Assembly (NCBI GenBank): GCA_024278555.1
Contig: JAJRSX010000097.1
Coordinates: 1-26,150, forward strand
Source: a bacterium
GTDB lineage: Bacteria; CG2-30-53-67; CG2-30-70-394
Length of the DNA: 26,150 nt
Direction: 5' to 3'
Made by a program: the position numbers and the translations under genes. Shown one piece after another: positions 1,965-23,765 of the stretch (position 1 is its first letter; each line of letters opens with the position of its first letter). The notes beneath the pieces were generated by a model. It did no database searches, was not told where the DNA came from, and worked only from the letters and a program-made list of their open reading frames with translations.

Positions 1965-1999
1965 TTGACGGAGACTCTATTTGGGACCATAAATGGTCC
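1965..1999 (+). promoter_or_regulatory. Sigma-70 promoter overlapped by a palindromic operator of the yefM/parE-type operon
   Basis: A -35 box TTGACG (1965-1970) lies 17 bases before CATAAA (1988-1993). The -10 box sits inside the palindrome GGACCAT-AA-ATGGTCC (1984-1999, two perfect 7-base arms). An antitoxin or toxin-antitoxin complex bound there would block RNA polymerase, as is usual for YefM/Phd autoregulation. The antitoxin ATG follows 25 bases after the palindrome. Confidence 0.6.
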
Positions 2000-2024
2000 A
2001 TCTCATCTTTATGGAGCTACCGCG

Positions 2025-2306
2025 ATGAAGCTCGACAGAGCGGTCAAGCCGATCAGTTACCTGAAGGCCCACGCGGCCACGGTGATCCGCGAGGTGGCCG
2101 AATCACGCACCCCCTACGTGATCACCCAACGGGGGGAGGCCAAGGCGGTGGTCATGGACGTGGAGAGCTACGACCAGCTTCGCGAGAGCCTTGCCCTTCT
2201 GAAGATTCTCGCCATGGGTGAGCATGGCGGCGACAAGGGCCACAAGCGGCCCGCGCGTGCCGCGATCTCTGATCTGCGGCGACAGCTCCGCAGCGATTAC
2301 GCATGA
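2025..2306 (+). CDS. Type II antitoxin, YefM/Phd family
   Basis: 93 residues starting MKLDRAVKPISYLKAH. The family pattern is clear: VKPISYLKAHAATVIREVAE (N-terminal DNA-binding fold), PYVITQRGEAKAVVMDVESYDQL, then a C-terminal toxin-binding tail with LALLKILAMG. It should neutralise the ParE/RelE-like toxin encoded next and repress the operon at the palindrome just upstream. A longer reading from TTG at 1965 would translate through the promoter and operator. I prefer ATG 2025 because GGAG sits about 9 bases before it and the family motif begins there. Its last bases overlap the toxin start by four (ATGA), typical of a coupled pair. Confidence 0.88.
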   Translation: MKLDRAVKPISYLKAHAATVIREVAESRTPYVITQRGEAKAVVMDVESYDQLRESLALLKILAMGEHGGDKGHKRPARAAISDLRRQLRSDYA

Positions 2307-2629
2307 AGCGGTACCGCGTCTTGCTCGCCTCGGAGGTGGAGCGCGACCTGGCGGAGATTCTCGACCACATCGCCCGCCGTGAGGCGGTCGCCGCGGCGGG
2401 CCGCCTCCTCGACGAAATCGAGGCGCTGTGCGCCACCCTGGGTGAGCTGCCGACGGGCGGCCACTGCCCCCCGGAGCTGGCGGGTGTGGGGGTGACCCGC
2501 TATCGCGAGCGCCACCACGGGCCGTACCGGATCTTCTACGAGGTAGGACGGGGTGAGGTCGTGGTTCTCGCCATCCTCGATGGCCGCCGCGACCTCCTGT
2601 CGCTCCTCGAGTGGCGGCTTCTGCGATAG
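2303..2629 (+). CDS. Type II toxin, ParE/RelE family
   Basis: 108 residues: MKRYRVLLASEVERDLAEIL (strand plus first helices), then TRYRERHHGPYRIFYEVGRG and VVLAILDGRRD, the usual RelE/ParE core. The C-terminus ends in LLSLLEWRLLR. RelE-type members cut mRNA on the ribosome and ParE-type members poison gyrase. The partner belongs to the Phd/YefM group often coupled with ParE-like toxins, so either target is possible. The start overlaps the antitoxin stop by four bases, implying translational coupling. The frame is intact, so the module looks functional. miaA starts 9 bases downstream. Confidence 0.85.
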   Translation: MKRYRVLLASEVERDLAEILDHIARREAVAAAGRLLDEIEALCATLGELPTGGHCPPELAGVGVTRYRERHHGPYRIFYEVGRGEVVVLAILDGRRDLLSLLEWRLLR

Positions 2630-18464: not shown

Positions 18465-18854
18465 TCAAACCGTCCTGCGGATCGCCCCTCGGATCCACGG
18501 TTCAAGGTGGTCGAAGTCCGAGCGCCCCGCCTCCAGGAGGCCGACGAGAAAGGTGTGCGCCGCCTTGGCCTCGACCTGGAGCCGCCATCCGTTGAGGCGC
18601 AGAAAGACATCGGTGGCGAAGAAGGCCACCCGCTTGTTGCCGTCGACAAAGGGGTGGTTCATGAGCAGGGACTCGAAGAGGGCCGCCGCCATCTCCACGA
18701 GATCTGCGTAGTAGCCCGTCCGCGGGCGGTAGAGGGCGCTCTCCAGGAGGCCGAGGTCCCGAACCTCCGGTGGTCCGCCGAAGCGCTCCACCAGCCGGGC
18801 ATGGATCGCCAGGACCTCGTCCAGCGACAGGTGACGGACCGCGTCACCGGCCAA
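18465..18854 (-). CDS. doc: Death-on-curing (Doc) family toxin
   Basis: 129 residues, close to P1 Doc (126). Doc proteins are Fic-fold kinases that phosphorylate EF-Tu and stop translation. The motif HPFVDGNKR at 67-75 fits HxFxx(A/G)NKR. LLESALYRPRTGYYADLVEMAA and FLRLNGWRL are also typical. The start is taken as TTG 18854, because homology begins there and AGGAG lies about 12 bases upstream. The open frame runs further upstream, but only as a shadow of the antitoxin. It overlaps the antitoxin 3' end by 11 bases, so translation is coupled. The active-site residues are present, so the toxin should be functional. Confidence 0.88.
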   Translation of the reverse strand: MAGDAVRHLSLDEVLAIHARLVERFGGPPEVRDLGLLESALYRPRTGYYADLVEMAAALFESLLMNHPFVDGNKRVAFFATDVFLRLNGWRLQVEAKAAHTFLVGLLEAGRSDFDHLEPWIRGAIRRTV

Positions 18855-19056
18855 GGCGGCGCCCCAGCTCCTCGTTGGCGGTGATGGAGTCCTCCAGGTG
18901 TGCCAGGACCTCAGGCCGGACCCTCCGCCGCCGCAGGTAGTCGCGTACCGCCTCGGTGAGGAGACCGGAGATGTTCTGGTGCGACTCCCGCGCCAACGCC
19001 CGCAGCTCCTCCCACGCCTCGGCATCGATCTTCGAGCTGATCTTGATGGCAGCCAT
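18844..19056 (-). CDS. Ribbon-helix-helix-type antitoxin paired with Doc
   Basis: 70 residues: MAAIKISSKIDAEAWEELRA forms the strand and first helix, ESHQNISGLLTEAVRDYLRRRR the second helix and basic end, and RPEVLAHLEDSITANEELGRRLGR a tail for toxin binding. This looks like a CopG/RHH-type DNA-binding antitoxin and not Phd, the usual Doc partner. An in-frame ATG at 19083 would add nine residues (MTTPDISQP), but it lies on the palindrome and -35-like TTGACA, so I prefer 19056. Neither start has a strong ribosome-binding site. The gene begins about 65 bases after dnaE ends, on the same strand. The RHH assignment is by pattern and moderately sure. Confidence 0.75.
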   Translation of the reverse strand: MAAIKISSKIDAEAWEELRALARESHQNISGLLTEAVRDYLRRRRVRPEVLAHLEDSITANEELGRRLGR

Positions 19057-22757: not shown

Positions 22758-23633
22758 CTAGTCGTCGTGGTGGCGCCGGTGGTGATCCTTCTTCTCTTTC
22801 TTCTCTTTCTTCTCCTTCTTCTTGTGATCGTCCTTCTGGTGATCATCGTCTCCACCATTCCCCGTGGGGGGGCAGATGGCGTCGCTGCCGTCACAGTCCT
22901 CGTCGATACCGTTGCCGCAGATCTCCATCGCGCCCGGGTGGATCATGGGGTCGGCGTCGTTGCAGTCGCTGCCGCCGCAGGCGGCCTCGGTGAAGCCGTC
23001 GCCGTCCATGTCGGGGCAGGTGGGCTGGCACCCCTCGTCCACCATGCCGTCACAGTCGTTGTCGATCCCGTCGCCGCAGACCTCGGTGGCGGCCGGGTTG
23101 ATGGCGGCATCGTTGTCGTCGCAGTCGACCGGGCCGCAGGCGCCGCCCTCCACGGCGAAGCCGTCACCGTCGGCGTCGGTGCACGCCGGGGCGCAGCCCA
23201 CGGCGCTCGGATCCTGGGCGTCGATCAGGCTGTCGCAGTCGTTGTCGATGCCGTCGGTGCAGATCTCCGCGGCGGCCGGGTTCACCATCGCGTTGGTGTC
23301 ATCGCAGTCGACCGGGCCGCAGGCGCCGCCCTCCACGGCGAAGCCGTCACCGTCCGCGTCGGTGCACGCCGGCGTCGAGCAGGGGCTGTCACCGGGACAG
23401 AAGAAGCAGAGGTCGCCGGCGAGAAATGCGTCCTTCTGGGGGGTGGAGATCTTTTTCCCCGCCGGGTCGTGGCACAGGAGGCAGGGGTCATTGCCCGGGA
23501 AGTTGGAGAATGGTTGCGATGGGCAGAAGGCGTCTACCTGCATGGCGTAGGAGGGGCGTGCTTCGGCAGCCGGGGAGAGGGCCGCCAGCAGGCCGATGGT
23601 GGCGGCTATAGTGAGGAGCTTCGTGGTTTTCAT
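22758..23633 (-). CDS. Secreted protein with one CxxCH haem motif, three MopE-type metal-binding repeats and a His/Lys/Asp-rich tail
   Basis: 291 residues. A Sec signal peptide covers about 1-25 (LLTIAATIGLLAALSPAAEA). A short Cys-rich part follows with CLLCH at 51-55, a c-type haem attachment motif, and CFFC at 76-79. Then come three MopE-like units at about 92-140, 152-200 and 207-250, each with DxDGDGF, C-G-DC(D/N)D, NPAA-E-C and DGIDNDCDG, resembling the putative metal-binding repeat PF11617 of Methylococcus MopE and calcium-type DxDxDG loops. The tail (260-291) is DDDHQKDDHKKKEKKEKKEKK followed by HHRRHH. It should act outside the cytoplasm, binding haem and Ca or Cu. The role is not known; electron transfer or metal capture at the cell surface is an inference. 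GGAG lies 11 bases before the ATG and a sigma-54-type promoter lies farther upstream. Confidence 0.85.
   Translation of the reverse strand: MKTTKLLTIAATIGLLAALSPAAEARPSYAMQVDAFCPSQPFSNFPGNDPCLLCHDPAGKKISTPQKDAFLAGDLCFFCPGDSPCSTPACTDADGDGFAVEGGACGPVDCDDTNAMVNPAAAEICTDGIDNDCDSLIDAQDPSAVGCAPACTDADGDGFAVEGGACGPVDCDDNDAAINPAATEVCGDGIDNDCDGMVDEGCQPTCPDMDGDGFTEAACGGSDCNDADPMIHPGAMEICGNGIDEDCDGSDAICPPTGNGGDDDHQKDDHKKKEKKEKKEKKDHHRRHHDD
23119..23372 (-). repeat. 71-bp near-identical duplication inside the MopE-repeat gene
   Basis: Bases 23119-23189 and 23302-23372 differ at one position only (G versus C in the CGTC-CGTCGG context). They encode the DADGDGFAVEGGACGPVDCD part of the first two protein repeats. 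Third codon positions are identical, so the copies are recent or gene-converted. The third protein repeat is clearly diverged. Confidence 0.9.
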
Positions 23634-23749
23634 GGTGAAAAGGTCTCCGAGAATCAGGGTTTTGGGGAAAAGAGGTGCACAACCGGGAGGGTTCGAAGAG
23701 GCGCGCTCTCCCCGATGCCGCCACGGAGTGACCCGCTCTGCTGGCGGTA

Positions 23750-23765
23750 AGCAAGCCGTGTGCCA
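23750..23765 (-). promoter_or_regulatory. Sigma-54 (RpoN) -24/-12 promoter of the haem/MopE gene
   Basis: The minus strand reads TGGCAC-ACGGC-TTGCT, an exact match to TGGCAC-N5-TTGCW. Transcription would start near 23738, giving a leader of about 105 bases before the ATG. I looked for a GEMM c-di-GMP riboswitch in that leader and saw none. Confidence 0.7.

Follow-up and report, generated by a model that had tools for sequence, protein, structure and literature searches.

Background

The Pfam name of PF11617 comes from MopE. MopE and CorA (Methylococcus capsulatus and Methylomicrobium album; PF11617; PDB 2VOV) are secreted copper-acquisition proteins of methanotrophs. In MopE* the copper site consists of His132, His203 and Kyn130, a kynurenine; the crystal model begins at Gly47, with a disordered segment before it, and calcium protects purified MopE from proteolysis (PMC3423442). 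PF11617 itself has been described as matching a small region only, without specificity (PMC6189053). Among extracellular cytochromes, PgcA of Geobacter sulfurreducens is a secreted, tethered triheme protein whose three haem domains are accompanied by (PT)x linkers and a lipid anchor (PMC11520253). With the exception of a paper on the c-type proteome of M. capsulatus, we found no publication that joins MopE with extracellular cytochromes.

The protein described here is encoded in the window, by which we mean the whole stretch of 26,150 nucleotides that was analysed. It is likewise predicted to be secreted, and it has in common with MopE/CorA the repeat D-x-D-x-D-G...IHPGA.E...DGxD-x-CDG. Unlike them, it lacks the domain that carries the MopE* copper site, and outside the repeat it adds a haem motif and a charged tail. 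PF11617 is named as copper-binding, and proteins like this one are easily annotated accordingly; in the window protein and several relatives from the same phylum, the repeats are coupled to predicted c-type haem sites. The likeness to PgcA is one of working, not of descent: small monohaem units and extended linkers in an exported protein. In contrast to PgcA, the window protein has a single haem motif, which it combines with disulfide repeats and a charged tail.

The gene and its product

All the elements that an earlier note had named in this gene are present (Table 1). That note left the strand unstated; the gene is on the minus strand, where the frame from 23633 to 22758 bears the mark of coding sequence (GC at the three codon positions 0.64/0.49/0.89), and GGAG stands about 11 nt upstream of the ATG. 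An overlapping plus-strand ORF (22767-23750) was discarded, its corresponding values being 0.85/0.51/0.64.

Table 1. Features of the gene and its product in the window
Feature	Position	Strand	Basis
Complete gene, 291 aa, secreted CxLCH-module/MopE-repeat protein	22758..23633	minus	ORF and translation
Predicted Sec signal peptide, residues 1-25 (MKTTKLLTIAATIGLLAALSPAAEA), predicted cleavage after AEA	23559..23633	minus	sequence read by eye
N-terminal module, residues 26-80	23394..23558	minus	invariant V-x3-C...P...C-x-L-C-H...T...A...F-C
CLLCH, haem c attachment motif, residues 51-55	23469..23483	minus	sequence; family conservation
CFFC, residues 76-79	23397..23408	minus	sequence; family alignment
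MopE (PF11617) repeat 1	23220..23309	minus	E 6.8e-11
MopE (PF11617) repeat 2	23034..23126	minus	E 1.7e-13
MopE (PF11617) repeat 3, contains His232 (MIHPGA)	22881..22967	minus	E 3.1e-12
Charged tail, residues 258-291, GNGGDDDHQKDDHKKKEKKEKKEKKDHHRRHHDD	22761..22862	minus	sequence; family-linked

The gene lies between dnaE and a glycosyltransferase gene. There is no cytochrome or secretion cluster around it; the setting (dnaE, accA, glycosyltransferase) is a housekeeping one. Elsewhere in the window are a Fic/DOC family gene (18465-19025, minus strand), with accA and dnaE to either side, and a pair consisting of a PhdYefM antitoxin and a ParE toxin (1965-2629, plus strand).

In Pfam, the protein matches PF11617 over three stretches with 121.7 bits (E 1e-35), above the gathering cut-off of 27 bits. 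Repeats 1 and 2 are an internal duplication of 154 nt with 86% identity. The repeats also match the acidic double-disulfide repeat of NCBIfam NF033662, weakly, at 23 bits against a curated cut-off of 41 bits. They pass directly into the tail with no domain between, and the 34 residues of the tail include 10 K, 2 R, 8 D, 3 E and 6 H.

The earlier note had proposed that the protein could bind copper or calcium, and perhaps mineral or polymer surfaces. The alignment with MopE* (PDB 2VOV; E 2.6e-5) covers chain residues 6-46 only, and the copper-site domain is absent from it. Since this match precedes Gly47 and the copper ligands are elsewhere, the copper site known from the MopE* structure falls outside the PF11617 stretch, and copper binding through the repeat is not supported. 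Calcium binding by the repeats is plausible from the D-x-D-x-D-G motif, considering also the protective effect of calcium on MopE (PMC3423442).

A sparse family with a conserved CxLCH module

The N-terminal module of about 55 residues has no model in Pfam or NCBIfam. We found it in 11 homologues from Desulfobacterota-type metagenome-assembled genomes, making 12 sequences with the window protein. Three full-length relatives (L015, L016 and L017) came from a scan of genome contigs and the others (L099, L100, L102, L103, L104, L119, L120 and L121) from profiles of the module. All the homologues have signal-like N-termini as well. The window protein conforms to the family pattern of an invariant V-x3-C, CxLCH and F-C followed by MopE repeats and a charged tail. 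The outliers are L099 (without MopE repeats and tail) and L100 (without the tail), where another domain takes the place of the remainder of the protein. L101 (contig C221 of genome G061) has the module as two paralogues in tandem, which are fused to a ITWVACTPEQIGP domain; a charged tail is absent. A plasmid search gave partial matches in Persicobacter, to the MopE part alone.

The family is sparse, being present in at least about 1% of the sampled Desulfobacterota-type species. An even sample of 395 genomes from the phylum of G060 has at least four matches, the seed being among the four, and in the order of G369 at least six of 136 genomes match, three of which were known before. In the phylum of the window itself (8 genomes) only the window's copy has the module, and in a wider set around the host genome, G000 (386 genomes), it is the sole module among the matches listed. 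The presence of the module here and its absence from G001, a genome of the same genus, suggest horizontal gain or loss. The combination of elements is thus unusual, as had been remarked before, but it is not unique, since a sparse family has the same architecture. This family is rare and apparently undescribed, and its members are probable cell-surface cytochromes.

The haem-attachment motif proposed in the earlier note holds up well: CxLCH is kept in all 12 sequences, whereas homologues lacking CxxCH would have spoken against it. One cysteine before the motif and one after it (C37 and C79) are likewise kept. In window numbering the invariant residues are V33, C37, P41, C51, L53, C54, H55, T64, A69, F78 and C79. 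The "CFFC pair" fared less well. The four letters are there, but they are not one motif, as C79 is invariant while C76 varies. C76 and a cysteine at the position of C85 are both present in four members (the window protein, L103, L104 and L119) and both absent in the other eight, a split with a chance of 1 in 495 by simple counting that ignores kinship. Since C76 tracks C85 rather than C79, we discarded the idea of a thioredoxin-like redox pair.

No second histidine or methionine is conserved across the 12 modules, so that a conserved distal ligand, as looked for in class-I cytochromes c, is lacking. The module of L015 has no histidine or methionine besides the histidine of CxxCH, and there is no further histidine ahead of the tail of this protein. 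Pfam finds no class-I cytochrome c domain in the window protein. An AlphaFold2 model of the module (pLDDT 80, pTM 0.60) gave no match to the PDB by Foldseek or VIA, including any to the class-I fold by Foldseek; the whole-protein model (mean pLDDT 43.7) was uninformative. A profile of the module searched against the PDB gave weak matches, mostly to cytochromes, the best being cytochrome c6 at E 0.056 and none significant.

The stretch that separates the tail from the MopE repeats differs among relatives. In five (L015, L016, L102, L103 and L104) it consists of about 80 residues of Ig-like character; L015 and L016 match Big_6 weakly, and the others were judged by alignment. In four more it is a class-I cytochrome c domain, matching Pfam Cytochrome_CBB3 above cut-off (L119, 1.3e-7; L120, 7.5e-7; L121, 9e-7; L017, 2.5e-7). 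Of the other members, ten have MopE repeats, and all but one of these end in the charged tail. One scan gave 65 complete MopE ORFs; both of those with the module (L015 and L016) had 60% or more charged residues among their last 25, and in the remaining 63 this was never the case. The tail is therefore linked to the module and not to MopE repeats in general.

The wider family has no common gene neighbourhood. The exception is found in two close relatives (G369 and G329), where a DsbA-like gene with CPYC lies directly 3' of the family gene, which fits a disulfide-rich product. These DsbA-like genes are at L114 5654-6583 (minus strand), where CPYC was seen, and L115 3675-4595 (plus strand).

Proposed function and its alternatives

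What might such a protein do? On balance we favour a secreted, probably cell-surface, monohaem c-type protein serving surface redox chemistry. After Sec export, the Ccm system would attach haem to C51 and C54, with H55 as the proximal ligand. A disulfide between C37 and C79, and in the four-member subset another between C76 and C85, would close the module. Each MopE repeat may fold around two disulfides, probably with Ca2+, giving a stalk, and the Asp/Lys/His polyampholyte tail would tether the protein to the cell surface, matrix or metal. The haem would then be a tethered redox centre outside the cell, working alongside the multihaem cytochromes of the organism. Our confidence is kept moderate because the sixth ligand is not conserved, the fold has no significant match, and the haem is a prediction.

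The main rival is a disulfide protein without haem: a structural surface component, such as a calcium-stabilised adhesin or part of a matrix, in which all the N-terminal cysteines, C51 and C54 included, form disulfides. The module has an even number of cysteines in either case, MopE repeats are a typical feature of giant adhesin-like proteins (the host genome has a frame of 3553 aa with such repeats), an Ig-like region replaces the second haem domain in five members, and the DsbA-like neighbours would suit such a protein too. We nevertheless consider it rather unlikely. The histidine right after CxxC is invariant in all 12 sequences while most of its neighbours vary, and a disulfide needs no histidine. 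Moreover, four relatives have a genuine cytochrome c domain in addition, and Ccm would act on an exported CxxCH. In favour of the monohaem reading are the invariant CxLCH with C37 and C79, the cytochrome c domain of these four relatives, the signal-like N-terminus, the multihaem cytochromes and haem c maturation genes of the host, the chains in the host and its phylum that join MopE repeats to many CxxCH, the link between tail and module, and the DsbA-like neighbours; against it stand the missing cytochrome profile and fold matches, the lack of a conserved distal ligand, the housekeeping neighbours, the lack of a neighbourhood common to the family, and G001, which is without the module.

If haem is attached, its coordination is a separate question. 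With no second conserved histidine or methionine, the haem may be five-coordinate, and small-molecule or peroxide chemistry may take place beside electron relay. That the protein performs sensing or such chemistry instead of electron relay seems improbable to us. That a sixth ligand is not conserved in the module or elsewhere speaks for it; yet the N-terminal amine, a histidine of the tail or a partner could provide one, and the domains fused to the protein in relatives are small cytochromes c of class I, a type that usually transfers electrons. Least probable of all, and very doubtful, is copper acquisition in the manner of MopE/CorA. The PF11617 repeats are present, the tail with its many histidines could be a binding site for Cu(II) or Ni(II), and His232 of repeat 3 aligns with His26 of MopE*, a possible Cu(II) ligand according to the authors of that structure (PMC3423442). 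However, the homology stops short of the domain with the copper site, PF11617 is small and unspecific (PMC6189053), and the tail of one relative, L102, has no histidine at all.

Returning to the favoured monohaem reading, a broader suggestion can be made, more tentatively. The module might be a minimal c-type haem domain, undescribed so far, that supplies no sixth ligand itself and serves generally to cap secreted MopE stalks. The payload of these would vary (nothing, an Ig-like region or a second cytochrome) while the charged tail is kept. Together they would make up a modular system for redox chemistry at the surface, with a scattered occurrence among distantly related bacteria. If haem attachment is true, the window protein would offer a compact and easily expressed model of tethered extracellular haem, and the module would allow surface cytochromes of a little-known class to be recognised from sequence.

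Related proteins with MopE repeats and haem motifs

Cytochrome c maturation genes, whose presence in the genome the earlier note had suggested checking, do occur in the host: G000 has three matches to PF01578 over the cut-off. There are also 17 matches to PF09699 (doubled CxxCH) and 22 to PF11617. On contig C132 (L117; L006 253-1965, minus strand) the host encodes a secreted ORF of 570 aa with one MopE repeat and about ten CxxCH motifs. Single chains with MopE repeats and ten CxxCH are found in two other genomes of the same small phylum, G001 (contig C138; L135 4546-8034, minus strand) and G007 (contig C6; L136 15262-17406, minus strand), where they adjoin multihaem cytochrome genes. Like the window protein, these fusions combine CxxCH with MopE repeats in a single secreted chain; they differ in that about ten CxxCH lie in a multihaem domain and the N-terminal CxLCH module is absent.

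Some Myxococcota MopE proteins (L070, L073, L074 and L080) also have a single CxxCH soon after the signal peptide, followed by MopE repeats. Their motif is GCxGCH and the sequence of their module differs from that of the window protein. L070 ends in a hydrophobic/Arg stretch like a membrane anchor, in contrast to the charged tail of the window protein. A chain of 1403 aa in the same-genus genome G001 (L135 121-4329, minus strand), with MopE repeats and seven CxxCH, has a C-terminus (...EKEHHHDHDRDD, with HHHDHDRDD) that resembles this tail.
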